From contig NZ_NASZ01000019.1 in NCBI RefSeq assembly GCF_014596575.1, positions 1 through 64,000 of the forward strand: a stretch of DNA of 64,000 nucleotides, written 5' to 3'. The notes under the pieces are model-generated. The model was not told the origin of the DNA and searched no databases. It saw only the letters and a list, made by a program, of their open reading frames with translations. A program made the translations under genes and the position numbers. Positions 12,667 to 30,492 of the stretch are shown here, one piece after another; the first letter of the stretch is position 1; the number at the start of each line of letters is the position of its first letter. This DNA is from Flavobacterium pokkalii. GTDB taxonomy: Bacteria > Bacteroidota > Bacteroidia > Flavobacteriales > Flavobacteriaceae.

Positions 12667-13415
12667 TGACCCAAAATTCTAAAAAGCGCTTCGGGCTACT
12701 GGGGCGCAATATCAGTTATTCCTTTTCTAAAGGACATTTTACAAAAAAATTCGAAAACGAAAAATACCAGGGCTACACCTACGAAAACTTTGATATTCAG
12801 GAAATCGGTGCATTTCCTGATATCATTAAAAATACTGAAAATCTAAGCGGGATGAATGTTACCATTCCATACAAAGAAGAAGTAATTCCTTTTTTAGACA
12901 AATTATCTAAAAAGGCCACTAAAATTGGAGCTGTAAACACCATTAAATTCACTAAAAAAGGAAAATTAAAAGGTTACAACACCGATTATTTTGGATTCCT
13001 AAAATCCTTAAAACCTTTATTACAACCGCATCATAAAAAAGCCTTAATTCTGGGAACCGGAGGCGCTTCTAAAGGAGTTGCTTTTGCCTTGGAAGAATTA
13101 GGAATTGGATACACCTTTGTTTCCCGAAAAGCATCTGAAAAAGCCATCGATTATAGTCAGCTGAATTCCGATATTTTTCAAGAATACCAAATCATTATCA
13201 ATTCGACACCAATAGGTACAAGCCCAAATATTGAAGCCTGTCCTGAGATTCCTTATGAATTCTTTACTGACAAACATATCGCTTACGATTTGATTTACAA
13301 TCCGGCTGAAACCCAATTTTTAAAAAATGCCAAAGAACGTGGCGCACAAATTAAAAACGGCTTAGATATGCTTATTTTTCAGGCCGAAAAAGCCTGGGAA
13401 ATCTGGAATAAATAA
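12666..13415 (+). CDS. aroE: Shikimate dehydrogenase
   Basis: Reduces 3-dehydroshikimate to shikimate with NADPH in aromatic amino acid synthesis. Family motifs are clear: LLGRNISYSFSKGHF (substrate pocket, the usual GxPxxHSxSP region), GMNVTIPYKEEV with the catalytic lysine, GAVNTIKF, NTDYFGF, and the nucleotide-binding GTGGASKGVAFAL. The length of 249 is typical. The start codon overlaps the stop of the upstream TPR gene by one base. It is followed by an inverted repeat, probably the end of this transcript. Confidence 0.96.
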   Translation: MTQNSKKRFGLLGRNISYSFSKGHFTKKFENEKYQGYTYENFDIQEIGAFPDIIKNTENLSGMNVTIPYKEEVIPFLDKLSKKATKIGAVNTIKFTKKGKLKGYNTDYFGFLKSLKPLLQPHHKKALILGTGGASKGVAFALEELGIGYTFVSRKASEKAIDYSQLNSDIFQEYQIIINSTPIGTSPNIEACPEIPYEFFTDKHIAYDLIYNPAETQFLKNAKERGAQIKNGLDMLIFQAEKAWEIWNK

Positions 13416-15122: not shown

Positions 15123-17633
15123 ATGAATAAACCACTTTTTTGTAGTCTGTTTTTATTAATTGCCTTTTTTTTAAATGCACAAACAAAATCATCCTATCAA
15201 TCTTTAGACCCAAAAAATCCAATTACTTTTAAAGGAAAAACCATCAGTTATCAGGGAAAAACCATCTCATTAGGACCAAAAGCCTTTTTTATAGATGCTC
15301 AGTTCAGTAAAGAACAGCTCTCCAAATATCCTTATGTATTTAACTCTATCAATGATGCGGTAAAACAACTTAGCAACGGAACGGAAACAGCACCAATGAG
15401 TTTGTACATTGCTCCAAACGTGTACTGGGTTGACAATCCTGATGACCCGGAAATCAGAAAACCGGAAGGAGATGGAACTGTACCTTATGCCTTAAATATT
15501 AAATGCGATTGGTTACGCTTTTTGGGTTTAACCAACAATCCCGAAAACGTAGTCATTGCAGCTAATCGCGGGCAAACTATAGGCGCTATAGGTAATTTTA
15601 CGCTTTTTAAAATATCTGGCGAAGGAACCAATGCTGAAAATGTCACTTTTGGAAATTATTGTAATGTAGATTTAAACTTCCCTTTAAAACCTGAACTTAA
15701 CAGAGTAAAAAGAGCAACAGCAATTGTACAGGCACAACTCATCCATTGTGATGGCGATAAAATTCTGGCCAGAAACTGCCGATTTATCAGCCGACTGAAT
15801 CTTTGTCCTTTTACGGGAGGGAAAAGGGTTCTTTTTGACCGCTGCCACTTTGAATCAACTGATGATGCACTTTGCGGAACAGCTGTTTATCTCAATTCAA
15901 CCTTAGACTTTTACAGTTCTAAACCATTTTATTGGACAAAAGGTACTGGTGCTGCTTTTTTAAATTGTAAAATACATTCGTTAACCAACGGGAATCAATT
16001 TTTTACAAAAGCAAATGGACAACTGGCAGTTATAGATACAAAATTCACTGCCGAAAATCCGATTTATTTGGGCTGGAATGATAATCTGCCACTCACAACC
16101 CGCAATTATCAATATTTGGTTAGTTTAAATAACAATCCTGTGTTAATTGAAAACAAAAATCCCGAATCGACTATCGATATGAGCAATTTGGATGTTTTAA
16201 ATGCTTATCGGTTTAATTTTAAAGGAAAAACTATTTACAACACCTACAATCTTTTAGCCGGAAATGACGATTGGGATCCAATGAACATCAAAAATATCGT
16301 TTTAACCGCCGAAAAAGAACAAGGCAAAAAACTACGTTTTTTACCCACACAACTATTAATTGAATCCTCTCAAAAAACTTTAGAAACCAAAAAAGACAAA
16401 GCTTTATTAAAAGCCTCTGCCTTTCGTTTTGGAAATTATGAAGTACAACCCGAAAAGATAAACTGGTCAGTAGCCTCTCAGGACAAAACTATTATTGAAT
16501 TAAAACCTTCTGCAAACAGCAACGAATGCGAAATTATTCCAAATCTTTTAGACGGAGACTCCAGAAATGTTATCATTACAGCCAAAACCACATCAGGCTT
16601 AGAAGCGGCTGTAGTGATTAAAATTAGTCCGCCAAAATTAGAAAGTCCGATTTTTACAGAAGCTCCTCATTTTGCAAAAATCAACAACGGTATTCTTAAC
16701 GTTCAGTATAAGATAAATACCGATTTCAAAGACCAAACAATCATAAACTACTACCGATGCACCGATAACAAAGGCGGAAATCCGATTGAAATTGCGGTTT
16801 CAAGAGATAATATCCCTTTAACAGAATATCCATTAACCATCGCCGATTCGTCTTATTACATTATGGCGACACTTGCCCCAAAAAACAATCGCAGTGATGC
16901 CGGAAAAACTATAAAAATAGTGACTCAAAAAGCCATTTCAGCCAATGAAATTACAGCAAACAAAAATACCTTGATAGCTGATTTCAAAAACAGTTCAACC
17001 AAAAATCAATTGGAAATTATTCCCGGATTTTGGACTTTTTCTCCTTTAGACAAAGAAGACATCAATAATTCAAACCCAAAAGACGCCTGGTATTTTGGCG
17101 AAGGATTTGATGGTGCTGCCAATCAGTTTGGACTTTTACCAACAGGCAGAAGTGCCCGCCTGCTCTACACTCCCGTAAAAAGAAATTATACCGACATGAC
17201 ATTTAATCTCCAAGTGACACCATTTAAAACCGCCGGTCAGGGATTTAGTGTTGCGCATATGTACATGGACATTCTGATTAAATGGGATGCCAAAACTAAT
17301 TCAGGCTATGCGTTACGTTTCATCCGAACTACAAAACACCACGATGCTGTAGATTGCATTTTATTGGAATATCAAAACGGAATTTCATATGAAATCAGCA
17401 AAGCTGTAACCACACACGCTTTTAACGGTCGTTGCAATATCAGTCTGGAAGTAAAAAACAATCATTTGACAGCAGCTTTGAGCAACAAACCGACAGATTC
17501 ACTTACTGCAAACAATCAACAGGAAACGATTCTTAGTGCTCTTATCAAACCTTCAATTTGGGGCGGTTTTGGAATTTTTTATAACGGAGGTTCGCAAACC
17601 ATGATAAACGAAATTCAAACGAGTTGGAAATAA
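15123..17633 (+). CDS. Large secreted right-handed beta-helix protein (pectinesterase/lyase-like)
   Basis: About 836 residues with a signal peptide (ending LNAQ). Residues about 40-350 resemble the beta-helix of pectin methylesterases and related enzymes: an SINDAVKQL segment, then successive short strands such as KILARNCRFISRLN, KRVLFDRCHFES and AAFLNCKIHSL. The middle holds an Ig-like segment, and the last 200 residues look like a jelly-roll (QFGLLPTGRSARLLYTP onward). The exact catalytic residues of known esterases or lyases are not obvious, so activity is uncertain. The TTG at 15117 opens the frame but the ATG at 15123 gives a better signal peptide. It probably works with the esterase upstream on an external glycan; no SusC/SusD pair is in view. 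Confidence 0.72.
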   Translation: MNKPLFCSLFLLIAFFLNAQTKSSYQSLDPKNPITFKGKTISYQGKTISLGPKAFFIDAQFSKEQLSKYPYVFNSINDAVKQLSNGTETAPMSLYIAPNVYWVDNPDDPEIRKPEGDGTVPYALNIKCDWLRFLGLTNNPENVVIAANRGQTIGAIGNFTLFKISGEGTNAENVTFGNYCNVDLNFPLKPELNRVKRATAIVQAQLIHCDGDKILARNCRFISRLNLCPFTGGKRVLFDRCHFESTDDALCGTAVYLNSTLDFYSSKPFYWTKGTGAAFLNCKIHSLTNGNQFFTKANGQLAVIDTKFTAENPIYLGWNDNLPLTTRNYQYLVSLNNNPVLIENKNPESTIDMSNLDVLNAYRFNFKGKTIYNTYNLLAGNDDWDPMNIKNIVLTAEKEQGKKLRFLPTQLLIESSQKTLETKKDKALLKASAFRFGNYEVQPEKINWSVASQDKTIIELKPSANSNECEIIPNLLDGDSRNVIITAKTTSGLEAAVVIKISPPKLESPIFTEAPHFAKINNGILNVQYKINTDFKDQTIINYYRCTDNKGGNPIEIAVSRDNIPLTEYPLTIADSSYYIMATLAPKNNRSDAGKTIKIVTQKAISANEITANKNTLIADFKNSSTKNQLEIIPGFWTFSPLDKEDINNSNPKDAWYFGEGFDGAANQFGLLPTGRSARLLYTPVKRNYTDMTFNLQVTPFKTAGQGFSVAHMYMDILIKWDAKTNSGYALRFIRTTKHHDAVDCILLEYQNGISYEISKAVTTHAFNGRCNISLEVKNNHLTAALSNKPTDSLTANNQQETILSALIKPSIWGGFGIFYNGGSQTMINEIQTSWK

Positions 17634-17656
17634 AAAACAGAATTATAAAGCACAAA

Positions 17657-17684
17657 AAAAGCCTCTTCTTTCGAAGAGGCTTTT
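17657..17684. terminator. Bidirectional terminator between the beta-helix gene and tRNA-His
   Basis: AAAAGCCTCTTC (17657-17668) pairs perfectly with 17673-17684 around a four-base loop. T-rich DNA follows on the plus strand, and seven T follow on the minus strand, where it lies eight bases after tRNA-His. It can serve both. Confidence 0.85.
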
Positions 17685-17691
17685 GATTTTG

Positions 17692-17766
17692 GGTGGATGA
17701 TGGGGTTCGAACCCACGACCCTCGGCACCACAAACCGATGCTCTAACCAGCTGAGCTACAACCACC
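17692..17766 (-). tRNA. tRNA-His (anticodon GTG)
   Basis: The minus strand folds into a complete cloverleaf: D arm AGCTC/GAGC, anticodon stem TCGGT/GCCGA with loop TTGTGGT (anticodon GTG), and T arm GTGGG-TTCGAAC-CCCAT. The extra G at -1 opposite C73, the identity element for histidyl-tRNA synthetase, is present. CCA is not encoded. The acceptor stem has one U-U mismatch, pair 5-68. Confidence 0.93.
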
Positions 17767-17850
17767 ATTTGTTTTTTGCTTGTTTGCGGTGGCAAAGATA
17801 CAACAGAAATCGAGTTCTCCAAACATTTTTTTAATAAAAATTAAAAAAAA

Positions 17851-18567
17851 TTATCGTAAATCCGCTAAACTATTGACAGCCAATAATCTTTCAACTGTAA
17901 ATCCTTCCGCAAATTCTAAGCCAACCAAGCGCCCAAGGTCTCTGGAACGATAATTTAAGCTCTCAAAAAAGTTTTTGGAGGTAATTGGCGACTCCGGTTC
18001 ATTGGAATTAGGGTCATAAAATTGTGAACGATAAGCCAAAATGGCCTCTATTTTCTTTTCGGTGAATCCGGTGATGTCCACTACAAAATCAGGTTCGATA
18101 TTTTTCCACTGAATGTAATGGTACACCACTTTGGGGCGCCAGGCTTTTTGAAACTTCCCTCCTGACTCCGTTTCTATTTTCATCAATCCGGATAAAAAGC
18201 AAGCATCGGAAACTAACTTACTCCCTTTTGCATGATCAATATGACGGTCATCTACCGCATTGCATAAAACAATCTCAGGTTGGTACTTGCGAATCATTTT
18301 AATAATTTCAATTTGGTGTTTTTCATCATTCACAAAAAAACCATCTCTCATATTTAAATTCTCGCGAACCGAAACACCTAATATTTTAGCCGCTGCGGCT
18401 GCTTCCTCATCTCTGATTTCAGCTGATCCGCGGGTTCCTAATTCGCCACGGGTCAAATCAATAATTCCAACTTTTTTCCCTAAAGAAACTTCTTTTAAAA
18501 TAGTCCCCGCACATCCTAATTCTACATCATCCGGATGCGCTCCAAACGCTAATATATCTAATTTCAT
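17851..18567 (-). CDS. bshB1: Bacillithiol biosynthesis deacetylase BshB1 (LmbE/PIG-L family)
   Basis: A zinc-dependent deacetylase that removes the acetyl group from N-acetylglucosaminyl-malate in bacillithiol synthesis. The zinc motif HPDDVELG is at residues 11-18, and RHIDH supplies a further ligand. ITSKNFFESLNYRSRDLGRLVGLEFAEGF near the C-terminus is typical of BshB1. The frame extends 19 codons upstream to 18624, but the ATG at 18567 gives the family's MKLDILAFGAHPDD start and is chosen. It is about 46 bases after menF and likely shares its transcript. No other bacillithiol gene is in the window. Confidence 0.92.
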   Translation of the reverse strand: MKLDILAFGAHPDDVELGCAGTILKEVSLGKKVGIIDLTRGELGTRGSAEIRDEEAAAAAKILGVSVRENLNMRDGFFVNDEKHQIEIIKMIRKYQPEIVLCNAVDDRHIDHAKGSKLVSDACFLSGLMKIETESGGKFQKAWRPKVVYHYIQWKNIEPDFVVDITGFTEKKIEAILAYRSQFYDPNSNEPESPITSKNFFESLNYRSRDLGRLVGLEFAEGFTVERLLAVNSLADLR

Positions 18568-18613
18568 TATTTTGTTTCTCTTTTCTCTTTTTTCTATTTT
18601 CTGCCTTCTAACT

Positions 18614-19675
18614 TCAAAGCACACTTTTCATCGTCATCGATTTATTCACACTTTCATTCCATTCTTTCTCAGGAATACTTTCTTTCGTAATCCCGCATCC
18701 AATGTACAAATACGCCTGTCTGGACTTAATTTGCATGCAACGCAAATTCACATACAAATCAGATTTTTGCTTTTTCTCGGCAAAATCTTTTTTATTCAAT
18801 TCGCCTAAAAATCCCGTATAATATTCCCGATTGTAATCTTCATTTTCTAAAATAAATGCTTTTGCCACTTCTTTTGGCAAACCACAAACGGCAGGTGTAG
18901 GATGCAATACCGAAACCACCTGATTTAACCTGGATTCTTTATTAATAACCCCTTCAATATCGGTTTTAATATGCAATACATTTCCCGCCTGAACAGTGTA
19001 CGGGCTCGAAATTGCCACCTCGGAAGTTAAGCCCTTAAGATTTTCCAAAATATAATCGGTAACATATTGTTGTTCTTCGACCTCTTTTTGTTCCCAAATC
19101 ACATCGGTTTTCCCTTCAAAATTTTGTGTTCCGGCTAAGGCCATCGTACAAAACTTTTTCTTACTCGCTTTTAACAAACGCTCCGGCGTGGCTCCCATCC
19201 ACAAACCTATTTTTGGATGGTACCAACAATAGCAAAATGCTGTTGGAAAACGTTGAATTAATTTAGTAAAAGCGGTAACCAAATCAAAATCCGGAACCTC
19301 CAGAATTTCTTTTCGGGAAAGCACCACCTTAGTCAATTCGCCATTTTTAATCGCTGTAATTGCTTTTTGAATCAAATTTTCAAAATGCGATTTTTCCTCA
19401 ACATTATCTTCCGAAGCGTAAACATGTGAATGATTTTCATCAAATGAAACTATATCCGATTCCCAAATTACCGATTGGTTCTTGGGTATCAAAATCATCT
19501 GACTGCCATCAAAAGGAGCAAAGACAAAACCGGTTTCATCTAAGGTTTCGGCAAAATACAAATGATCATTTTTTTGAAAAAAACCTCTCACTTCTGTTTT
19601 ATAAGGTTTACTGTAAATCACAAAAGGTAGTTTTTGGGCTTCCTGCTGCTTCACTTTTATAAAAAAATCAATCAT
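18614..19675 (-). CDS. menF: Isochorismate synthase
   Basis: Converts chorismate to isochorismate, the first step of menaquinone synthesis by the classical o-succinylbenzoate route. It shows the chorismate-binding domain: NGELTKVVLSRKEI, MGATPERLL, a central MALAGTQ region, VLHPTPAVCGLPKEVA, and REYYTGFLGE with magnesium-binding glutamates. The 353-residue length fits. It is 33 bases after the hotdog thioesterase gene, which supports a menaquinone role over salicylate or siderophore synthesis. Confidence 0.92.
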   Translation of the reverse strand: MIDFFIKVKQQEAQKLPFVIYSKPYKTEVRGFFQKNDHLYFAETLDETGFVFAPFDGSQMILIPKNQSVIWESDIVSFDENHSHVYASEDNVEEKSHFENLIQKAITAIKNGELTKVVLSRKEILEVPDFDLVTAFTKLIQRFPTAFCYCWYHPKIGLWMGATPERLLKASKKKFCTMALAGTQNFEGKTDVIWEQKEVEEQQYVTDYILENLKGLTSEVAISSPYTVQAGNVLHIKTDIEGVINKESRLNQVVSVLHPTPAVCGLPKEVAKAFILENEDYNREYYTGFLGELNKKDFAEKKQKSDLYVNLRCMQIKSRQAYLYIGCGITKESIPEKEWNESVNKSMTMKSVL

Positions 19676-19708
19676 ACATTGTTTTATTAAAAGTTAGTTG
19701 TATAGTGT

Positions 19709-20143
19709 TTAGTGTGTTTTCTTTCTTTTAGGCAAAACCATATTGGTGAGTTTGCACAAGGAAACCAAATTATTCCTTTCATCCACAACCCTTATTTCCC
19801 ACAAATGAATGCTGGCCCCCTGATGAATAATTTTAGCCGTGGCCGTAACCATTCCTTCTCTTTTGGATTTTAAATGATTGGCCGAAATTTCTATTCCGCG
19901 CACTTCGCTTACTTCAGGATTAATAAAAATAAAAGAGGCTGCACTGCCTACACTTTCGGCTAAAGCTACTGTAGCACCTCCATGCAACAGCCCCATCGGT
20001 TGATGAACACTCGGATTAACAGGCATTGTAGCAGTTAAAAAACCTTCACCTGCATCTACATATTGAATATTTAAGGTTTCCATTAAGGTATTTTTTGAAA
20101 TACGATTACAGTATTCCAGAATTTTTTCTTTATCGAATGTCAT
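19709..20143 (-). CDS. Hotdog-fold thioesterase, probable 1,4-dihydroxy-2-naphthoyl-CoA hydrolase
   Basis: A 144-residue PaaI/MenI-type thioesterase. The active-site segment HQPMGLLHGGATVALAESVGS is complete, with the HGG turn and the catalytic acidic residue. GIEISANHLKSKREG and the ATAKIIHQGASIHLWEIRV strands complete the hotdog core. Its position directly before menF suggests it is the DHNA-CoA thioesterase of menaquinone synthesis (MenI role). Phenylacetyl-CoA type substrates remain possible because the fold does not fix specificity. Confidence 0.82.
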   Translation of the reverse strand: MTFDKEKILEYCNRISKNTLMETLNIQYVDAGEGFLTATMPVNPSVHQPMGLLHGGATVALAESVGSAASFIFINPEVSEVRGIEISANHLKSKREGMVTATAKIIHQGASIHLWEIRVVDERNNLVSLCKLTNMVLPKRKKTH

Positions 20144-20282
20144 GCTTTTAATTTAATTGCTTGTAAAAATAAAGAAAAGAATAAATATTCCGCTCGAAAA
20201 TAGCCGCTATATTCACTCCAAACCGATTAAATAAAGTGTCAACGAATGAGTTTTTTTCTATTTTTACAAAAAAACAAAACAC

Positions 20283-21794
20283 ATGCGTCCTTTTTCGCTA
20301 CTTTTTATTTTCGGAATTCTGCTTACTATTTGTTCCTGCCGAACAGATTTTTCGACTGTTCCCAGCAACGGGAAATTAGTTTTCTCAAGAGATACCGTTT
20401 TTTTAGACACTGTTTTTTCAACAATTAGTTCGAGTACTTATCTTTTAAAAGTGTACAACCACAGCAAGAAAGATATTAATATTCCAACCATAAAATTAGG
20501 CAAAGGACTTGCTTCGAAATACCGTATAACCGTTGATGGCACGCAGGGACAAAACAACAAAATTTTCACAGATGTCGTTTTATTAGCCAAAGACAGTCTT
20601 TATATTTTTATCGAAACTACACCTACCATCGCTGATGCCAATCCGGATGATTTTTTATATACCGACGAAATTGAATTTGACAGCGGTAGTAATTTACAAA
20701 AAGTAAAACTGCTCACATTAGTCAAAGATGCTGTTTTTTTATACCCAAAAAGAGTAAACAATAACACTACTGAAACTGTCACTTTTGACGATACCGAATT
20801 TAATGGTTTTTATTTAGATGAAAATGATCCAACTAATGGCAACGAATTGCATTTTACCAATCAAAAAGCTTATGTAATCTACGGTTACGCCACCGTTCCC
20901 GAAGGAAAAACAGTCGTTTTTGACGCCGGAGCACGGGTTTATTTTCATACTAATTCCGGTTTAATTGTTCCGCAATCGGCTTCTTTGCAATGTAACGGAA
21001 CGGTTTCTGAAACGAGCCAATTAGAAAACGAAATCATTTTTGAAGGCGATCGCCTGGAAGCAGATTACGCCAATATTCCCGGACAATGGGCAACGATTTG
21101 GCTTCGTGACGGAAGCACTAATCATAAAATCAATCATCTTACGATAAAAAATGCAACAATTGGTCTACGAATTGACAATCAGGACAACACCACAGTTAGT
21201 TTAAAAAACAGCCAAATTTACAATTCGTCCAACTATGGAATTTTAGCTCAAAATGCCAAAATTACCGGCGAAAATCTGGTCATTAATACTGCCGGAATAG
21301 CCACTTTAGGCTGTATCTATGGCGGAAATTATCAATTTACCCATTGCACCATTAACAACTATTGGAACGGTTCGCAACAAAAAGCTTTACTTTTAAACAA
21401 TTACAAAACAGACAAAACGCCGACAGCTAAGGATTTGACTCAGGCCACTTTTAACAATTGCATTATTTACGGAGCCTATGCTAACGAATTGTTTTTGGAT
21501 AAAAATGAGGCTGCTCTTTTTGAATTTCAATTCAACAATTGCTTATTAAAATCCGAATCCAACAATTCCAATTCTTTATACAATTTCAACGACAACAGTC
21601 ATTACAACAATGTTATTTTGAATCAAAATCCGCGATTTTTAGACATTACCAATAACAAACTCAACATCAACAATACTTCCGCCGCTTTCGCAAAAGGAAA
21701 TCCGGCTTATTTAATTTCACTGGACATTAACGGAAAAACCCGAACTTTACCGCCCGATTTAGGTGCTTACCAAAGCGCTCCTCTTACAAACTAA
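20283..21794 (+). CDS. Surface lipoprotein with a right-handed beta-helix region
   Basis: A 503-residue protein with a lipoprotein signal; Cys19 in ICSC is the likely lipidated residue. The N-terminal 150 residues look like an Ig-like or Abnormal-spindle-type beta-sandwich (FLDTVFSTISSSTYLLKVYNHSKKDI). Residues about 190-480 form a beta-helix rich in short Asn-containing strands (IKNATIGLRIDNQDN, VSLKNSQIYNSSNYGILAQNAKITGENLVI). The enzymatic role, if any, is unknown. It is 33 bases from the bestrophin gene, and the two may be co-transcribed. Confidence 0.75.
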   Translation: MRPFSLLFIFGILLTICSCRTDFSTVPSNGKLVFSRDTVFLDTVFSTISSSTYLLKVYNHSKKDINIPTIKLGKGLASKYRITVDGTQGQNNKIFTDVVLLAKDSLYIFIETTPTIADANPDDFLYTDEIEFDSGSNLQKVKLLTLVKDAVFLYPKRVNNNTTETVTFDDTEFNGFYLDENDPTNGNELHFTNQKAYVIYGYATVPEGKTVVFDAGARVYFHTNSGLIVPQSASLQCNGTVSETSQLENEIIFEGDRLEADYANIPGQWATIWLRDGSTNHKINHLTIKNATIGLRIDNQDNTTVSLKNSQIYNSSNYGILAQNAKITGENLVINTAGIATLGCIYGGNYQFTHCTINNYWNGSQQKALLLNNYKTDKTPTAKDLTQATFNNCIIYGAYANELFLDKNEAALFEFQFNNCLLKSESNNSNSLYNFNDNSHYNNVILNQNPRFLDITNNKLNINNTSAAFAKGNPAYLISLDINGKTRTLPPDLGAYQSAPLTN

Positions 21795-21827
21795 AAAAAA
21801 CAGTTTCCGACTAAAAAAATACCCCTG

Positions 21828-22688
21828 ATGATTTCATACAATCCAAAAGACTGGCTTACTTTTATTTTTCGTTTTCACAAAGCCGACACTTTCCGACAAT
21901 TATTTCCTTTAATCATCTTAATTGGAATTTACTCCACAGCAGTTGCTTATTTAGAACTGGAATATTGGGATTTGCCGGATGACAGCCATGTAAAAAACAT
22001 TTCGATGATGCATGGAATGCTTGGGTTTGTGATTTCACTTTTGCTTGTTTTCAGAACCAACACCGCTTATGATCGCTGGTGGGAAGGCCGAAAAATGTGG
22101 GGCGCATTGGTAAACAACAGCCGAAATCTGGCCATTAAACTAAACGCTATCATTGAAGACGAAAAAGACCGGGCATTTTTTAGAAAAATTATTCCCGTTT
22201 ACGCTTCTATCCTGAATAAACATCTCAAAGACGAAGAAACGGCCAAACAACTCGCTGAAGATATTATATTGCACGACCACCATTCACATCGCCCGAATCA
22301 GGTAGCTAAAATGTTGTTTATGAAGGTAAATGAGCTGTACAAAAGTCAAAAAATCACAGGAGACCAACTGATTATTTTAAATAGCGAAATCCAGTCTTTA
22401 ACCGATATTTGTGGCGCCTGCGAACGCATTAAAAATACTCCTATCCCCTATTCTTATAGTGCTTTTTTGAAAAAATTCATCTTTTTCTATGTCATGACAC
22501 TTCCGTTTGGTTACGTTTTTAACCTCGGTTATTTTGTAATTCCTGTGGTGATTTTTATTTTCTATGTCTTGGCCAGTTTAGAATTAATTGCTGAAGAAAT
22601 TGAAGAACCTTTTGGGCATGACGACAATGATTTACCAAGCACTAAAATTGCCGAAAACATCAAAAAACACATCGAAGAAATCATTTAA
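21828..22688 (+). CDS. Bestrophin-family anion channel
   Basis: A 286-residue membrane protein of the bacterial bestrophin/UPF0187 group. It shows an early membrane helix pair (LFPLIILIGIYSTAVAYLELE and LGFVISLLLVFRTNTAYDRWWEGR), with the NTAYDRWWEGR motif typical of the family, and RIKNTPIPYSYSAFLKKFIFFY before the later helices. The tail carries the IEEPFGHDDNDLP signature. It probably forms a pentameric chloride or other anion channel. Its last 24 codons occur again, diverged, about 1.4 kb downstream at 24004-24078. Confidence 0.93.
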   Translation: MISYNPKDWLTFIFRFHKADTFRQLFPLIILIGIYSTAVAYLELEYWDLPDDSHVKNISMMHGMLGFVISLLLVFRTNTAYDRWWEGRKMWGALVNNSRNLAIKLNAIIEDEKDRAFFRKIIPVYASILNKHLKDEETAKQLAEDIILHDHHSHRPNQVAKMLFMKVNELYKSQKITGDQLIILNSEIQSLTDICGACERIKNTPIPYSYSAFLKKFIFFYVMTLPFGYVFNLGYFVIPVVIFIFYVLASLELIAEEIEEPFGHDDNDLPSTKIAENIKKHIEEII

Positions 22689-22974
22689 TTTTTTTTTTAA
22701 AGTTTACTTTATACGCTAATAAAAAAGAATCTTTAAGTATTTTATTGATTTATTCTATATAAAAACACCAAAAACAAGATTATTTTACAATAATTCAACA
22801 CAAAAAACAACTAATATTTCTGTAATTTTTTTCCTTTAAAAAAGCATTTTATACACTTAATCGATTTTTAAAACAGCTTTAACGGATTTTTTTTCTTTAT
22901 AATTTTTATCACATAATATTTACAAAAAAATTGATACCCAATCAATCATTAACTAAATCATTTGTAAACAAATT

Positions 22975-23883
22975 ATGAAAAAAATTGTACTATCATTATT
23001 AACACTGGCTATCTTTAGCTGTACAACAGAAAACGAAACAACAACTTCAGATGTAGCAGCAAGCAATCTTTCTGCAAAAGTTTCAACTTCAAAAAACTTA
23101 ATAACAGCTGCTGAACTTCCTACTACAAATTATTCATTAACAACTTACGAAAGCTGTAGTGCTAATTGTATTGAAGCAGGTTCTGCCATTTACTTTGAAA
23201 AAACTAATGAACAAACTGTTTCATGGGGTGGACCAAATAATGACAAATTTTCTAAAACAGTATATATCAAATATTTCAACACTTTAACTGATTTTAAAAT
23301 CTTAGTTCTAAGTACAGAAGGTTTCTCTGATCTTATCATCAACGGTATTGAGACTGGAATTGGTGCCACTGCAAATACTTGGGGCGAATACAGCCTTCCT
23401 TTAGGAACAACTTGGAATACTTGTGATATAAAGAATTTCAATGTAAAAGTTGCCGGAAATGGTCCACAAGCAGAATTCAATACTAGCTATGGTCTTGTTG
23501 GAAAATGTGAAAGTACTTGTTCTACTTCTTTTACAGGAAAAAGTATTTCATGTGACGAAACTCGTGAAGTTGAGTACACATTTACTTCAAAAGATGATGT
23601 TTCTAATTTAAAAATTCAAGGTGGTTTAACTAACTTTACAGGTGAAGATGCTGTAGTAACAATTACAGGTGGAAATTTAACTCATACTCAAAGAATTCCG
23701 GGAGGAGAAAAAAATTCAAATAGAATAATCACTATCGAAGGTAGTGTCAAAGCATGTGAAACTATCACTATTAATATCAAATGGAATTCTTCTAATTCTG
23801 GTGGAATTATAACAGGTTCCTGGTCAGCTGGTGGAACTGGAGTTTCTGTAGATCCTGTTGCAGGATTAGAATGTCAAAACTAA
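22975..23883 (+). CDS. Orphan lipoprotein with two cysteine-rich beta domains
   Basis: A 302-residue protein I do not recognise. The N-terminus is a lipoprotein signal with Cys16 (IFSC), followed by a Thr/Ser/Glu-rich spacer. Two domains of about 120 residues each follow, both opening with closely spaced cysteines (ESCSANC and ESTCSTSF) and predicted all-beta; internal disulfides are likely. It is probably outer-membrane anchored. The gene stands alone, with 286 AT-rich bases before it, a hairpin after it, and a diverged copy of the upstream gene's 3' end beyond that, suggesting insertion between the bestrophin gene and pheT. Confidence 0.75.
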   Translation: MKKIVLSLLTLAIFSCTTENETTTSDVAASNLSAKVSTSKNLITAAELPTTNYSLTTYESCSANCIEAGSAIYFEKTNEQTVSWGGPNNDKFSKTVYIKYFNTLTDFKILVLSTEGFSDLIINGIETGIGATANTWGEYSLPLGTTWNTCDIKNFNVKVAGNGPQAEFNTSYGLVGKCESTCSTSFTGKSISCDETREVEYTFTSKDDVSNLKIQGGLTNFTGEDAVVTITGGNLTHTQRIPGGEKNSNRIITIEGSVKACETITINIKWNSSNSGGIITGSWSAGGTGVSVDPVAGLECQN

Positions 23884-23905
23884 ACCTTTTTTATCATTAA
23901 ACAAA

Positions 23906-23939
23906 TTGAGGCTCATTACTTTTTTGTAATGAGCCTCAA
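23906..23939 (+). terminator. Hairpin terminator of the orphan lipoprotein gene
   Basis: A perfect 14-base-pair stem (23906-23919 with 23926-23939) closes over six T. The following bases ATATTTAT make a weak T tract. Confidence 0.7.
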
Positions 23940-24003
23940 ATATTTATAACCTACAATTGTTGAATACAAATAATAAAAATGACTTTTAAATTTGTACAAC
24001 TAA

Positions 24004-24078
24004 GATAATAACAACAATGATTTACCAACTTCAAAAATTGCTAAAAAAATCAAAAAACACATTGAAGAAATCATCTAA
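24004..24078 (+). pseudogene. Diverged remnant of a bestrophin gene 3' end
   Basis: Translated in frame, this 75-base stretch gives NNNNDLPTSKIAKKIKKHIEEII then stop. It matches HDDNDLPSTKIAENIKKHIEEII at the end of the bestrophin gene ending at 22688. Across the 66 most similar bases about 10 differ, several at silent codon positions. No start codon or upstream coding part exists, so it is a gene fragment and not a gene. Confidence 0.85.
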
Positions 24079-24153
24079 CTTTTGTTTCGAAACATTAATT
24101 ATACTTCAACAAAAAATATTATTGATAATAAACAGAAAACAAAGTTTAATCAC

Positions 24154-24184
24154 TTTGAAGCTCGGTTGACAATCCTTATATTTG
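24154..24184 (+). promoter_or_regulatory. Promoter of pheT (Bacteroidota consensus)
   Basis: TTTG at 24154-24157, a 19-base spacer, and TATATTTG at 24177-24184 match the Bacteroidota -33/-7 consensus exactly. The ATG of pheT lies 21 bases after the -7 element. Confidence 0.8.
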
Positions 24185-24205
24185 CAACCTTATTAAAATA
24201 TTCAA

Positions 24206-26626
24206 ATGAAAATATCTTACAACTGGTTAAAACAATTCATTAAAACCGATTGGAATTCAGAACAAACAGCAGCTTTACTGACTGATTTAGGACTTGAAGT
24301 AGAGGTTGTTGAAAAATATCAATCTGTAAAAGGAGGATTAGAAGGTATTGTAGTTGGACATGTACTTACATGTGAAAAACATCCGGATGCCGACAAATTA
24401 AAAGTAACTACCGTTGACTTAGGAAATGGAGCGCCAATACAAGTTGTTTGTGGTGCAAGCAATGTTGCCGCAGGACAAAAAGTACCTGTAGCGACTATTG
24501 GAACCGTTTTATACGATAAAGAAGGAAATTCATTTACCATAAAAAAAGGAAAAATCCGCGGACAGGAAAGTCACGGAATGATTTGCGCCGAAGACGAATT
24601 AGGTCTTGGAGAAAGTCATGACGGAATTATGGTCTTGGATAACGATTTAGCTCCGGGAACTCCTGCTGCTAAAGTTTTCAAAATAGAAAATGACGAAGTT
24701 TTCGAAATTGGCTTAACGCCAAACCGCGCCGATGCCATGAGTCACCTGGGGACTGCCCGTGATTTAAGAGCTGGTTTACTTCAAAACGGAGTTAGCGTTG
24801 AATTGATTACGCCATCTGTAAGTAATTTTAGAGTGGATATGCGCACTTTAAAAATTGATGTCAATGTTGAAGCACCGCTTTTGGCTCCACGTTATTGCGG
24901 AGTTACTATTTCGGGAGTTACTGTTAAACCATCTCCGGCCTGGTTACAAGACCGTTTGAAAGCTATTGGAATCAATCCAAAAAACAATATTGTGGATGTA
25001 ACGAATTATGTTTTACATGATTTAGGACAACCATTACATGCTTTTGATGCTGCTAAAATCAATGGTAAAATCCATGTAAAAACAGTGGAAGCCGGAACTA
25101 AATTTACTACTCTGGACGAAGTAGAAAGAACTTTACACGAAGAAGACTTAATAATTTGCGATGAAAAAGGACCTTTGTGTATTGCCGGAGTTTTAGGCGG
25201 ACAACATTCCGGAGTAAGCAATCACACTACTGCTATTTTCTTAGAAAGCGCTTATTTTAATCCGGTAAGCGTTAGAAAAACAGCTAAAAGACATCAAATC
25301 AGCACCGATGCTTCCTTTAGATTTGAAAGAGGAATTGATCCATCCATTACAGCTTATGCTTTAAAACGTGCCGCTTTATTAATTCAGGAAGTAGCCGGCG
25401 GTAACATCACTTCGGAAATTGTTGACATCAACACTAAGAAAATCGAAGATTTCTCAGTGTTTTTGAATTTTGATAAGGTAACTAAAATCATTGGACAAAA
25501 AATCCCAAAAGATACAATCAAACAAATTTTAGTTTCTTTGGACATCAAAGTAAACAGTGTTTCGGAAGCAGGATTAGGTTTGACTATTCCGGCTTATCGC
25601 GTGGATGTACAAAGAGAAATTGATGTTATTGAAGAAATCCTTAGAGTCTATGGATACAACAAAATTGATTTTTCAAACAAATTAAACGCGACTGTATTTA
25701 ACGCTCCAAGAAACGAAGATTACAAATTGCAAAATATCATTGGAAACCAATTGAATTCACAAGGATTCCACGAAATGATGGCCAATTCCTTAACGACATC
25801 TTCTTATGTTCAGCTTTCTGAAATGCTAAAAGAAGAGCACAATGTAACGATGTTGAATCCATTGAGTAACGATTTGGCAACTATGCGTCAATCTTTATTG
25901 TTTTCAGGATTAGAAGCCATTGCTTACAATATCAATCGTAAAAATGCCGATTTAAAATTATTTGAATTTGGTAAAACCTACCATAAATTCCTTTCAGGAT
26001 ACGAAGAACACAAACATTTAAGTTTGTTTTTAACGGGGAACAAAAATCAGGAAAACTGGACTAATCCTCAAAAACCTTCCGATTTCTTTTTATTCAAAGG
26101 TTATGTTGAAGGAATTTTATCCAGATTAGGAATTCAAAAAACACTAAATTCACCTGCAAAATCAGATGTGTTTTCTGAAGGAATTACCATCGGAACAGGA
26201 CACAATGTTTTGGTAGAATTTGGTGTGGTAAAAAAATCAATTCTAAAACATTTCGGAATCAAACAGGAAGTTTTCTTTGCCGATTTAAACTGGGAAAATG
26301 TAATAAAATCAATTCCTAACAAAATTAAATTCACCGAAATTAATAAATACCCGGAAGTTAGAAGAGATTTAGCCTTATTGCTTGATCAAAATGTGAGTTA
26401 TGACAGTATTTATAGCATCGCCAGACAAACGGAAAAAAGCTTATTGAAAAACATCAATCTTTTTGATGTTTACGAAGGAAAAAATCTTCCGGAAGGTAAA
26501 AAATCTTATGCTTTGAGTTTTATTTTACAAGACGATTCTAAAACACTTACCGATGCTCAAATTGACAAAATTATGAGTAAACTGCAAAAGAATTTTGAAA
26601 CCGAACTTGGAGCTACTTTGAGATAA
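24206..26626 (+). CDS. pheT: Phenylalanine--tRNA ligase beta subunit
   Basis: The beta chain of the alpha2-beta2 synthetase that charges tRNA-Phe. Domains in order: start helix MKISYNWLKQFI; EMAP-like tRNA-binding domain with HVLTCEKHPDADKLKV (about 50-155); B3/B4 editing domain with DVTNYVLHDLGQPLHAFDA; B5 DNA-binding-like domain (about 405-475, ending EEILRVYGYNKI); the catalytic-like module; and the C-terminal anticodon-binding domain YPEVRRDLALLLDQNVSY. At 806 residues it is complete. pheS is not adjacent. It has its own consensus promoter and a hairpin terminator. Confidence 0.97.
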   Translation: MKISYNWLKQFIKTDWNSEQTAALLTDLGLEVEVVEKYQSVKGGLEGIVVGHVLTCEKHPDADKLKVTTVDLGNGAPIQVVCGASNVAAGQKVPVATIGTVLYDKEGNSFTIKKGKIRGQESHGMICAEDELGLGESHDGIMVLDNDLAPGTPAAKVFKIENDEVFEIGLTPNRADAMSHLGTARDLRAGLLQNGVSVELITPSVSNFRVDMRTLKIDVNVEAPLLAPRYCGVTISGVTVKPSPAWLQDRLKAIGINPKNNIVDVTNYVLHDLGQPLHAFDAAKINGKIHVKTVEAGTKFTTLDEVERTLHEEDLIICDEKGPLCIAGVLGGQHSGVSNHTTAIFLESAYFNPVSVRKTAKRHQISTDASFRFERGIDPSITAYALKRAALLIQEVAGGNITSEIVDINTKKIEDFSVFLNFDKVTKIIGQKIPKDTIKQILVSLDIKVNSVSEAGLGLTIPAYRVDVQREIDVIEEILRVYGYNKIDFSNKLNATVFNAPRNEDYKLQNIIGNQLNSQGFHEMMANSLTTSSYVQLSEMLKEEHNVTMLNPLSNDLATMRQSLLFSGLEAIAYNINRKNADLKLFEFGKTYHKFLSGYEEHKHLSLFLTGNKNQENWTNPQKPSDFFLFKGYVEGILSRLGIQKTLNSPAKSDVFSEGITIGTGHNVLVEFGVVKKSILKHFGIKQEVFFADLNWENVIKSIPNKIKFTEINKYPEVRRDLALLLDQNVSYDSIYSIARQTEKSLLKNINLFDVYEGKNLPEGKKSYALSFILQDDSKTLTDAQIDKIMSKLQKNFETELGATLR

Positions 26627-26649
26627 TATTTTAAGAAAGTACATAAAAC

Positions 26650-26686
26650 AAAACCCATCCCGTTGTAAAAAACAGGATGGGTTTTT
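26650..26686 (+). terminator. Intrinsic terminator of pheT
   Basis: AAAACCCATCCCGTT (26650-26664) pairs with AACAGGATGGGTTTT (26671-26685) with one mismatch and leads into a T run. Confidence 0.8.
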
Positions 26687-26718
26687 CATTTGTAACAAAT
26701 TACAAAACCAACAAACAA

Positions 26719-27273
26719 CTATGATTTTGGCAATAAAACCGTATCCACTACGTGAATTACACCATTCGATTGATTCACATCAGCAATCGTAACTTCAGAC
26801 ATTCCTCCTTTTTCATCTGTAATGTATAATTTTTTTCCTTTCATCCAGGCAGTTAAAGTACCGCCACTAACTGTTTTTAATATCGCTTTACCATTACCTG
26901 CCTTAATTGCTTTAGCGATATCAGAGGCATTCATTTTTCCTGCCACGACATGATACGTAAGGATATTTTGCAACATTTTTAGATTTTCAGGTTTTAACAA
27001 TGTCTCCACAGTTCCTTTTGGTAATTTGTCAAAAGCAGCATTAGTTGGGGCAAAAACGGTGAACGGTCCTTTTCCTTGTAAAGTTTCCACTAAGCCGGCA
27101 GCTTTTACGGCAGCTACTAAAGTGGTGTGATCTTTAGAATTAACAGCATTTTCAATAATGTTTTTAGTAGGATACATTGGAGCACCACCTACCATTACCG
27201 TTTTTTGAGCAAAAGAGTTTACTCCGAATACTAATGCAAAAAATGCAACTGATAAAATTTTTCTAGCTTTCAT
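26719..27273 (-). CDS. Secreted fasciclin (FAS1) domain protein
   Basis: A 184-residue exported protein with a signal peptide ending SFA-Q. The single FAS1 domain is complete: DHTTLVAAVKAAGLVETL, the H1 motif GPFTVFAPTNAAFDKLP, the YHV motif in LTYHVVAGKM, and the H2 motif NGVIHVVDTVLLP. FAS1 proteins mediate cell adhesion or matrix contact; the ligand here is unknown. It is a single-gene unit on the minus strand facing pheT, with the pheT terminator between them. Confidence 0.93.
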   Translation of the reverse strand: MKARKILSVAFFALVFGVNSFAQKTVMVGGAPMYPTKNIIENAVNSKDHTTLVAAVKAAGLVETLQGKGPFTVFAPTNAAFDKLPKGTVETLLKPENLKMLQNILTYHVVAGKMNASDIAKAIKAGNGKAILKTVSGGTLTAWMKGKKLYITDEKGGMSEVTIADVNQSNGVIHVVDTVLLPKS

Positions 27274-27341
27274 AATGATACTTTTTTAAGTTATATAAAA
27301 GCATTTACGGTAATAGATTCACTTTGGTTTTAAAAAGAAAT

Positions 27342-27378
27342 AAAAAAAGTGAGACATTAAAAACATCTCACTTTTTTT
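27342..27378. terminator. Terminator of the type IX cluster (minus strand)
   Basis: AAAAAAAGTGAGA (27342-27354) pairs exactly with TCTCACTTTTTTT (27366-27378). Read on the minus strand it lies 45 bases after the stop of the OmpA-family gene. T tracts flank both sides, so it can also act on the plus strand. Confidence 0.8.
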
Positions 27379-27422
27379 ATCTTTCCTGTATTTATTTTTG
27401 GAAACCAAAAACTTTGTAAAGC

Positions 27423-29546
27423 TTACAAATTCTTTATCACAAATTCACTTCTTCGGTTTAACTCATGTTGTTCTTCCGAACAGGATTCACTAGGTTCACA
27501 TTTTACAATTTGTACCGTTTCGCCATAGCCTTTGGCAAAAATTTGTTTGGCCGAAATTCCCTGACTAATGAAATAATCGCGGGTAGAATTGGCTCTTTTC
27601 GTTGAAAGTTCCAGATTATATTTTGCATTTCCGCGATTATCGGTGTGCGAACCAACCTCAACCACCATATCCGGATATTTTTTCATCAAATCAATTACCT
27701 TATTCAAAATAGGCTTCGATTCTTTACGAATGTACCATAAATCATAATCAAAATAAATGGGATCGGTTTTAATAAGCAATCGGTCTTTGTCTTTTACAAT
27801 ATCTTTCTCAGCTGCCACAATCGTTTCCACCTTTTCCTTCTTCTTGGCTTCGGCTACAGCAATGGCTTTTTTAGCAGCCAATTCTTTTTCAACTTTAGCT
27901 TTTTCAGCAAGGATTTGGGCTTCTTTCTTTTGTTTGACAACAAGCAAAGCTGCTTCTTTTTTCTTTTGTTCTATGGCAGCTAATTCTTCTCTCTTAATCG
28001 CTTCTTTCGATTTTAAAGCCATCGAAGCATCATTGATTTTCTTTCTGTCTTTATACAACTTCAGGAATTTTGAAGCTTCGGTATATTGTTCTTTTGACGC
28101 GTAAACAGTATAGCTTTTTTCGCAATCAACCGAAAAAGAAAAACGTCCGTCAGCAGTTGTCAGTGCCGTTTCAATTTGTTTTTTATTAGCATCCTGCAAA
28201 ATTACTTTTGCACTGCTCAAAGGAAGTTTGGTGTCGATATCCGTTATAATACCGGCAATGTACTGCATACAATTTTCTACTACCAAAGGCTGAATTTCGT
28301 TGATTTCATAAATATCATCCGAGCCTTTTCCGCCTTTTCTGTTCGAAGCAAAATAACCGTGTTTAGTTTCGGAATCAATTACAAAAGAAAAATCGTCATA
28401 ACCGGAATTAATTGGCAAACCAACATTCAAAGGCGTTGAAAACTCGCCATTTTTTATTTCAGAAACAAAAACATCCAACATTCCGTAACCCTCATGTCCA
28501 TTGGAAGAAAAATATAATTTGTTCTCTTTTGAAACAAACGGAAATTGTTCTTTTTTATCGGTGTTAATTGTTGGCCCTAAATTCTTAGGCGCTCCATAAT
28601 CCGAACCTAAAATTGCCACACTGTAAATATCAAAAGAACCTAAAGAACCCGGCATATCAGAAGCAAAATACAAAGTCTTCTCATCCTGACTCAAAGCTGG
28701 ATGTTCTACTGAATAATTATCGCTATTGAATGGCAAAGCGGTTATATTACGCCATTTCCCATCAATCAATTCGGCTTTATAAATTTTAAGCGTAGAAATT
28801 TTATGGTCATTTTTAGCCCTCACACCGTCGTTAGAATTATTGCGGGTAAAATAAACTGTTTTCCCGTTTTTAGTAAAAACAGCATTCGCATCGTGTAACG
28901 GAGAATCTAATTCGACAGCAAACTTTTTAACAGAATCCAGTTTTGGGTTTTTAAGCGAAACCGCCATTAAATCCAAATAACTTTCGTTATTCCATTTGTA
29001 CATTTTTTCAAAAGCATAAGGCTTTATTTTTACAGCCGAAAAAACTAATTTTTGTTTGTACGGAACCGCTCCAAACTCTGAATTTGGGGTATTAACAGGC
29101 ATATTTTTAATATCGTAGCGATTGCCTAAAGCCGAGATATTTTCTAAAACCAAATTGTCTTTTTCCAATTTTTCAATTGCTTTTTGATTATTGGTTTTCA
29201 AAAAATAATCGCGCATTACTTTATTTGCTTCTTCATAATTTCCCGAAGCTTTTAAAGTTTGTGCATATTTAAAATAATAATCTCCGTCAACACTTTCCGG
29301 AAAACGGGCGATTAAAAAACGGTATTGTCTTTGCGCATTTGCATAATCATTGGTAAAATAATAACTGTCCGCCAGATTTTTTACAACTTCAAAAGAGCGG
29401 TTGTTATCTATAATCGATTCATACAACGGAATCGATTCACTGTAATACGTTCGGTCAAATAAGCGTTTGGCTCTTTGTAAATCCTGAGTTTGTGCCTTTG
29501 CAAATTGAAACGCCAACACAATTAAAATAAGAGATATTCTTTTCAT
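27423..29546 (-). CDS. OmpA-family outer membrane protein with WD40-like propeller
   Basis: About 707 residues with a signal peptide (MKRISLILIVLAFQFAKAQ). In order it has TPR-like helices (about 20-130), PD40/WD40-like beta-propeller blades (HPALSQDEKTLYFASDMPGS, KLYFSSNGHEGYG, HGYFASNRKGGKGSDDIYE), a CarboxypepD-regulatory-like Ig domain, a charged Lys/Ala/Glu helix, and an OmpA peptidoglycan-binding domain with GSHTDNRGNAKYN and LSTKRANSTRDYF. This architecture accompanies PorP/SprF and gliding-type secreted proteins. A TTG at 29582 opens the frame, but the ATG at 29546 gives the signal peptide and begins 10 bases after the PorP/SprF gene stop. It probably anchors the secreted partner's complex to peptidoglycan. 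Confidence 0.92.
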   Translation of the reverse strand: MKRISLILIVLAFQFAKAQTQDLQRAKRLFDRTYYSESIPLYESIIDNNRSFEVVKNLADSYYFTNDYANAQRQYRFLIARFPESVDGDYYFKYAQTLKASGNYEEANKVMRDYFLKTNNQKAIEKLEKDNLVLENISALGNRYDIKNMPVNTPNSEFGAVPYKQKLVFSAVKIKPYAFEKMYKWNNESYLDLMAVSLKNPKLDSVKKFAVELDSPLHDANAVFTKNGKTVYFTRNNSNDGVRAKNDHKISTLKIYKAELIDGKWRNITALPFNSDNYSVEHPALSQDEKTLYFASDMPGSLGSFDIYSVAILGSDYGAPKNLGPTINTDKKEQFPFVSKENKLYFSSNGHEGYGMLDVFVSEIKNGEFSTPLNVGLPINSGYDDFSFVIDSETKHGYFASNRKGGKGSDDIYEINEIQPLVVENCMQYIAGIITDIDTKLPLSSAKVILQDANKKQIETALTTADGRFSFSVDCEKSYTVYASKEQYTEASKFLKLYKDRKKINDASMALKSKEAIKREELAAIEQKKKEAALLVVKQKKEAQILAEKAKVEKELAAKKAIAVAEAKKKEKVETIVAAEKDIVKDKDRLLIKTDPIYFDYDLWYIRKESKPILNKVIDLMKKYPDMVVEVGSHTDNRGNAKYNLELSTKRANSTRDYFISQGISAKQIFAKGYGETVQIVKCEPSESCSEEQHELNRRSEFVIKNL

Positions 29547-29556
29547 CGTTATCATA

Positions 29557-30492
29557 TTAAAAGAATCTTGGTGATTTATCAAAACCTTTACCTAATAAAT
29601 CTAAATTAAACAGCATAAAAACTTCGTGTGTGCCCGAATTGAATTGCCCAAAATTTGAAGTCGTATAATCGTAAGCGTAACCAACACTTATACTTGGAGA
29701 AACTTTGATATTCATCAAGGCACTTACCGAATCATCAATGCGGTAAGAAGCTCCCAATTCAAATTTTTCATTAAACAATACATTAGCAGAAACATCCAAA
29801 GAAGCAGCCGAACCTGGAACAATTCGGCTCATAAAAGCCGGTTTCAGCTTAAATGAATCCGACAAATTAAACACATAACCTCCGGTGAAAAACATATGTG
29901 CTTTCTCAGAACCAAAAGCATTAATTCCGGAACGTTCTTCGATGTGTTTGGACGAAAGTAAATTAGGCGCCGAAAATCCTAAATAATAATTATCGGTAAA
30001 GAAATAAGCTCCTGCACCAATATTTGGAAAAACATGATTTATATTTTCCTGAAAAGCGGCATCTGTTGAAGCGTCTCCACTTTCAAAAACAAAACCGTTA
30101 AAATTCGTTTTAAACGAGGTGAATCCTGCTTTTAATCCCAAAGATAATTTTGCCCGACTGCCCATATCCAAAACATAGGCAAAATCAGCATAGAAATTAT
30201 CTTCTTTTTTAGCTCCGTCACCAATGTCATCAGAAATAATTGAAACGCCCATTTCAACTTTTTTATTCAATGGTATGTGTCCAAAAAAATTAAACGTTTT
30301 AGGTGCTCCAACCGCTCCCGCCCACTGCGAACGATACAAAATCCCTAAGTCCAGCATGGCTTGCGTTCCGGTGGCATAAGCCGGATTGACCACATTCATA
30401 TTATACATATAATGCGTATATTCCGGATCTTGCTGGGCAGTTACTTTTAGTAAAAACAATAAAAAACTGATACTGAATATTATTTTTTTCAT
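29557..30492 (-). CDS. PorP/SprF family type IX secretion outer membrane protein
   Basis: A 311-residue outer membrane beta-barrel with a signal peptide ending VTAQ. The N-terminal DPEYTHYMYNMNVVNPAYAGT-like segment (here NPAYATGTQAML) and SQWAGAVGAPKTFNF are hallmark PorP/SprF sequences, and alternating strands fill the rest. SprF-type proteins are dedicated partners that help one secreted type B-domain protein leave through the type IX system and stay at the surface. Here the partner is the large protein just upstream, 31 bases away. Confidence 0.94.
   Translation of the reverse strand: MKKIIFSISFLLFLLKVTAQQDPEYTHYMYNMNVVNPAYATGTQAMLDLGILYRSQWAGAVGAPKTFNFFGHIPLNKKVEMGVSIISDDIGDGAKKEDNFYADFAYVLDMGSRAKLSLGLKAGFTSFKTNFNGFVFESGDASTDAAFQENINHVFPNIGAGAYFFTDNYYLGFSAPNLLSSKHIEERSGINAFGSEKAHMFFTGGYVFNLSDSFKLKPAFMSRIVPGSAASLDVSANVLFNEKFELGASYRIDDSVSALMNIKVSPSISVGYAYDYTTSNFGQFNSGTHEVFMLFNLDLLGKGFDKSPRFF

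Follow-up and report, generated by a model that had tools for sequence, protein, structure and literature searches.

Homology-facilitated illegitimate recombination (HFIR) has been described in three competent species (Acinetobacter, Pseudomonas stutzeri and Streptococcus pneumoniae) and invoked for the diversity of E. coli (PMC2884548). HFIR has been reported for conjugation in E. coli (PMC3240628) and is also the route proposed for T6SS arrays of Vibrio in which 3′ ends have been displaced (PMC5361080). In the Rhs loci and T6SS effector-immunity arrays of Vibrio cholerae, the upstream anchor is constant and a new module is added, behind which the older, displaced 3′ end is kept (PMC5361080). 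The minimal mobile elements of Neisseria consist of differing whole-gene cassettes between conserved flanks (PMC3082526).

The locus studied here lies in a 64,000-nt stretch of Flavobacterium pokkalii DNA, hereafter the window, and resembles each of these systems in part (Table 1). As in HFIR, one end of the foreign DNA appears to have been anchored by homology and the other attached non-homologously. HFIR gives the anatomy seen here when its non-homologous joint lies slightly inside the anchor gene; the event differs in being natural, old and read from sequence. Compared with the T6SS and Rhs loci, the anchor is a housekeeping-type neighbour gene, the displaced end is a dead stub, and the cargo is a lipoprotein without a known toxin role. 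The bestrophin-pheT slot resembles a minimal mobile element in holding different whole genes between conserved flanks: it is empty in F. daejeonense DSM 17708 (locus L032), carries a lipoprotein gene of one family (family 1) in the window and of another (family 2) in L206 and in L033, which comes from a Flavobacterium MAG. However, the joint in the window is one-sided rather than a clean two-sided exchange, and the cassettes occupy several slots of one neighbourhood and differ between species, not strains. Homologous recombination in both flanks, a further mark of such elements, is not found in the window: a duplicate of the native end is retained on the right, so that the right joint involved no homologous exchange in the flanking gene.

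Table 1. Features of the bestrophin-pheT locus, in positions of the window
Feature	Position	Strand	Remarks
Bestrophin-like gene	21828-22688	+	Pfam PF25539
Bestrophin, native part	21828-22637	+	Pfam PF25539; 20/810 bases differ from F. daejeonense L032
Current bestrophin 3′ end, probably donor-derived	22638-22688	+	7/51 bases differ from L032
Foreign spacer with the lipoprotein's upstream module, 286 bp	22689-22974	+	Homology to the spacer between bestrophin and the lipoprotein gene in L033
Orphan lipoprotein gene, 302 aa, family 1	22975-23883	+	First ~36 codons common to other lipoproteins, then an all-beta body
Perfect 14-bp hairpin behind the lipoprotein gene	23906-23939	+	RNA fold -23.3 kcal/mol, z = -8.4, 0/200 shuffles
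Displaced native bestrophin 3′ end, non-coding stub	24008-24078	+	60/71 identical to 22618-22688; joined to the native spacer
Native bestrophin-pheT spacer	24079-24205	+	124/127 identical to L032
pheT (presumed; name recognised from the protein)	24206-26626	+	99% identical protein in L032

The strongest direct repeat that a repeat search returned for positions 20000-26000 pairs 22618-22733 with 24008-24123 at 76% over 116 nt. Over the 71 nt that lead up to both stop codons, the bestrophin end and the stub are 85% identical with 11 differences, and the stub is in frame with the bestrophin end, stop codon included. This tail repeat is far beyond chance: the match in the gap behind the lipoprotein gene has z = 23.5, a value reached by none of 200 shuffles. 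The original prediction, which placed at 24004-24078 a copy of the upstream bestrophin end with about 85% identity, is borne out by 60 of the 71 bases at 24008-24078, and it also described correctly the interval between the copies, where, besides the hairpin, the lipoprotein gene is the sole ORF of at least 60 aa after an overlap filter. Its statement that many of the base changes are silent fails, since this applies to only 3 of the 11 (the translations are DDNDLPSTKIAENIKKHIEEII and NNNDLPTSKIAKKIKKHIEEII).

The empty site is provided by F. daejeonense, in which bestrophin (98% identical to that of the window) is separated by 127 bp from pheT (99%); no match to the lipoprotein is found in L032. 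Window positions 15835-22697 match L032 at 95.5% and positions 24008-30072 at 96.9%, the two flank matches overlap by 80 bp in L032, and the two copies stand 1,390 bp apart, which is the net gain of the window over the empty site. Among 62 loci holding both genes on one stretch, drawn from the best 80 of 413 loci in which bestrophin was found, the bestrophin-pheT gap is below 450 bp in 30. L032 and these 30 loci agree with the predicted original order of bestrophin then pheT, and F. daejeonense is a relative of the kind proposed as a check, with bestrophin next to pheT and without the lipoprotein. It is highly improbable that the lipoprotein gene is instead ancestral in the slot and was lost in F. 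daejeonense, the repeat having arisen later in the window lineage by duplication of part of bestrophin. L033 and L206 do hold a lipoprotein gene between bestrophin and pheT, albeit a different one; yet the stub is joined to the spacer of the only bestrophin end of F. daejeonense, the direct junction recurs in the 30 loci above, and a loss followed by a separate duplication with exactly that spacer is less economical.

Because the stub runs into an L032-type spacer (124/127), the downstream copy can firmly be taken as the native end, which goes against the claim of its foreign origin. Behind the intact bestrophin, the spacer is unlike that of L032 (73/146 columns). The final codons of that gene are likely foreign, a moderately supported reading that draws on the divergence of the tail and, as much, on the spacer behind it. 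The identity of bestrophin to L032 is 0.967-0.981 and drops to 0.863 in the last 51 bases, while that to the more distant L033 (bestrophin 90% identical) stays between 0.79 and 0.84 along the whole gene; the switch from native to donor sequence would lie near 22628-22639. The excess of changes in the tail (7/51 against 20/810) gives a Fisher p of 0.0006, which is optimistic because four of the seven changes cluster in a five-base stretch and one is common to both window copies, hence probably a change in L032: without the latter p is 0.003, and if the cluster of four is counted as one event as well, 0.15. At all six positions of the tail where the upstream copy has a base of its own, the stub agrees with L032. 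Each of the five private changes of the stub is G:C to A:T, in keeping with decay. The predicted insertion of a unit carrying the lipoprotein gene and a foreign bestrophin end stands in outline, with its polarity reversed: the foreign end most likely lies upstream, where it finishes the intact gene.

The spacer in front of the window lipoprotein gene matches the L033 bestrophin-lipoprotein spacer with z = 10.1 over the whole and z = 4.9 over its first 150 nt (0/300 shuffles each), compared with -0.7 to 0.3 and -0.9 to 0.7, respectively, for four lipoprotein-free control spacers. Spacers before the other family-2 genes give z = 6.1 (L205), 3.6 (L067), 2.4 (L210), 1.5 (L206), 0.9 (L209) and 0.0 (L207). 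Over the 150 nt upstream of its start codon, the window gene is akin to family-2 genes, with values of 13.2 (L033), 10.8 (L205), 5.7 (L067), 5.0 (L210), 2.5 (L209), 1.2 (L206) and 0.9 (L207), and not to the other three close family-1 genes (-0.6, 1.4 and 0.2). The body belongs to family 1, with a score of 947 against the F. gillisiae protein and 60 against L033, and hhalign aligns only 23 N-terminal columns between the two families. L033 is the best match for the first ~36 codons (z = 19.2), but these also match the family-1 gene of UMI-01 (z = 13.6), on which ground a purely family-2 type of 5′ coding module was rejected. Within this shared 5′ module, the families seem to be set apart only by the upstream region, and the window gene looks like a chimera in which a family-1 body follows an upstream region of family-2 type.

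The comparison thus shows an empty site, a right-hand stub that is native, a left-hand spacer that is foreign and an insert without a recombinase gene. They are probably to be explained by one-sided homologous recombination anchored in bestrophin, that is, by HFIR or a close equivalent, a recombination route that is already known. A recipient Flavobacterium with bestrophin directly before pheT would have taken up a fragment of the DNA of another Flavobacterium, with the lipoprotein gene behind bestrophin. At the left end, homologous recombination in the last ~60 bases of bestrophin would have kept the gene intact, with donor codons at its end; at the right end, where HFIR would be expected to involve microhomology of a few bases, the fragment would have been attached non-homologously, immediately before the final 71 bases of the recipient's bestrophin. 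The native tail, the spacer and pheT would thereby have been displaced 1,390 bp downstream, the tail becoming non-coding and decaying. The insertion would have been tolerated because the bestrophin frame was completed and pheT kept its native upstream region. Consistent with HFIR, the left joint keeps the bestrophin frame, with identity to L032 falling from ~0.97 to 0.86 over the last 51 bases, and 22689-24007 contains no ORF of at least 60 aa but that of the lipoprotein, hence no recombinase or transposase ORF. On this reading, the window is a readable natural gene gain by one-sided recombination, in which empty site, native stub and foreign spacer are all visible; it would show how a gene can be added at the 3′ end of a neighbour without harm to either neighbour, and displaced 3′ stubs could mark such acquisitions in genomes.

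A second case with the same anatomy, also in favour of HFIR, is found in F. gillisiae (L038, the same locus as L121), where a family-1 gene lies between tolC and bestrophin. These two genes are within about 30-70 bp of each other in L037, L039, L040 and L045, and L036 has about 1.3 kb between them. Behind the F. gillisiae lipoprotein gene, the last ~500 nt of tolC recur as a decayed copy that has ~220 nt deleted (z = 20.0, 0/200 shuffles) and that by eye continues into the tolC-bestrophin spacer of L037. Several points count against HFIR. A divergence step was looked for in F. gillisiae tolC and none was seen; a right-hand stub of the upstream gene occurs in only 2 of 11 lipoprotein loci, the others having z between -1.1 and 2.1 (with 44 nt examinable in L207); the spacers of L206 and L207 are unlike that of the window; and the p value of the bestrophin tail rises to 0.15 on the strictest count. 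No clear mirror-image stub is present among the 11 loci (the top one, L206, has z = 3.0, 1/200 shuffles), and a test for a recG stub in F. granuli gave none.

Direct repeats around the cargo, with the gene in front of it left intact, in two cases, are also what a transposition-like insertion into the bestrophin 3′ end would leave, with a ~70-bp target-site duplication and both copies derived from the same native end; on the count in which the clustered changes are one event, the left tail indeed shows no significant divergence. Such an insertion is decidedly unlikely, since the insert has neither a transposase ORF nor a framing inverted repeat, the repeats measure 71 and ~500 nt instead of a short fixed target-site duplication, and the spacer is homologous to that of another species from just behind bestrophin on.

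The kind of donor, the way its DNA was taken up and the manner in which the right-hand end was joined are inferred. A search of 398 Flavobacterium genomes and of plasmids, phages and viral contigs turned up no donor, which counts against HFIR, and family 2 has no match in viral contigs either. The F. pokkalii genome carries a DprA-family gene (PF02481). In F. johnsoniae, natural competence was not seen under the conditions tested (PMC7965970). A Campbell-type integration, in which a circular DNA with a donor bestrophin end and the lipoprotein gene enters by a single crossover within ~70 bp and leaves a hybrid copy on each side, would yield the same anatomy of a repeat on both sides with the cargo between, and the private changes at the stub start (24010 and 24013) could then be donor bases. 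This is unlikely, given that the lipoprotein occurs in no plasmid, phage or viral contig record, that decay explains the five private stub changes, and that an arm of ~500 nt would be required in F. gillisiae against ~71 nt in the window. One-sided recombination remains our preferred explanation.

Close family-1 genes (E ≤ 1e-100) are present in 4 of 398 Flavobacterium genomes and any match in 9, the own genome included; their sites are bestrophin-pheT in the window, tolC-bestrophin in F. gillisiae, the recG-efflux operon interval in F. granuli, and elsewhere in UMI-01. Family-2 genes (E ≤ 1e-50) are present in 6 of 397 genomes, between bestrophin and pheT (L033, L206), after bestrophin at a contig end (L207), just before pheT (L205), between recG and the efflux operon (L209), and between tolC and bestrophin in F. 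glaciei (L210), where the gene is truncated. Nine of the ten close copies thus lie in the recG-efflux-bestrophin-pheT neighbourhood, which spans 16.6 kb in F. glaciei, or 7 of 8 without the seed loci (the window and L033); the count leaves out L067 because this locus was found by inspecting the slot itself. The F. glaciei gene (L210:10558-11106) is cut to 182 residues and is apparently a decaying copy. Outside the neighbourhood lie a distant family-2 relative (G316) and five distant family-1 relatives, four beside what we take from sequence to be a pyrB/pyrR-like pair and one beside a presumed ABC-F-like gene; the wider family gives weak matches in 6 of 397 genomes besides the own. Tentatively, the neighbourhood may be a site of surface-lipoprotein diversification, in which a shared upstream and signal-peptide module is repeatedly combined with unrelated bodies and changes slots by one-sided recombination, similar to the exchange of variable ends at Rhs or T6SS effector loci; we regard this as less likely than not. 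Two unrelated lipoprotein bodies with related 5′ modules in several slots would make surface-protein exchange in Flavobacterium directly testable. A listing-level search of the literature on Flavobacterium illegitimate recombination, lipoprotein variable regions and conserved flanking genes did not return this lipoprotein locus.

The N-terminus of the window lipoprotein is lipobox-like by eye, and its structure model is all-beta (pLDDT 83.6), with a family-1 body that we read as two sandwich domains; the family-2 model is mixed beta and helix at low confidence (pLDDT 69.6). The window protein and three relatives have no Pfam match up to E 0.1, NCBIfam matches fall below the curated cut-offs, and the window protein has no PDB sequence match up to E 1. 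A fold search with the window model returned generic beta-sandwich matches (integrins, staphylococcal adhesins, CBM3), with TM by query of at most 0.29 among the 50 matches listed, and because these are only generic, no function is claimed. From the lipobox-like N-terminus and the sandwich matches, one may guess at a surface-exposed binding or shielding role. The low GC3 of the gene (0.155, the lowest of 510 ORFs) was considered as a sign of foreign origin and rejected: all 12 of 12 lipoprotein genes lie below the mean GC3 of their neighbours, so that a low GC3 seems to be typical of this class of genes. The hairpin behind the gene is an ordinary perfect stem with no T-run after it.

Upstream of the gene, the motif ACTTNATCGNTTTT-N6-16-NCGGATTT at 22855-22889 is one of exactly two copies in the genome, the other (G000:C5:47505-47541) standing upstream of another, probably long, reading frame; the backward control gave none. 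Since none of the 59 other genomes among the 60 searched has the exact motif, the exact pattern lends no support to a genus-wide regulon.

A scan for tail copies covered 671 ORFs in 864 kb of the F. pokkalii genome (3.89 Mb, 68 contigs), window included. The bestrophin copy has the top score (43.5) among those outside other ORFs, and the single higher score (45.0) lies inside a neighbouring ORF. Scores of at least 20 number five, two outside ORFs (the window and C1:302768-303598) and three inside neighbouring ORFs; reversed-sequence controls never reached 15, let alone 20, and upstream-sequence controls reached 20 twice and 30 once. These two controls replaced one that paired tails with other loci, which was contaminated by orthologues. 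A scan of 822 ORFs gave five scores of at least 18, from the window, L095, L091, a tandem paralogue pair in L126, and L088 (18.0); reversed controls gave none and upstream controls one, again the L126 pair. In L095 (5880-7080), a ~105-nt decayed recG end lies behind bestrophin, which therefore seems to be the inserted gene there. In F. urocaniciphilum (L091:6760-7060), the bestrophin end is repeated (34 nt, 85%) beyond a short palindrome-rich element, with no gene between. The L126 pair (11554-12830) consists of two tandem lipoprotein-like genes with ends 91% identical, a recent duplication. In the F. pokkalii genome itself, a regulator-like gene, LytTR-type by eye (G000:C1:302768-303773), carries a decayed copy of its own end ~75 nt behind it.
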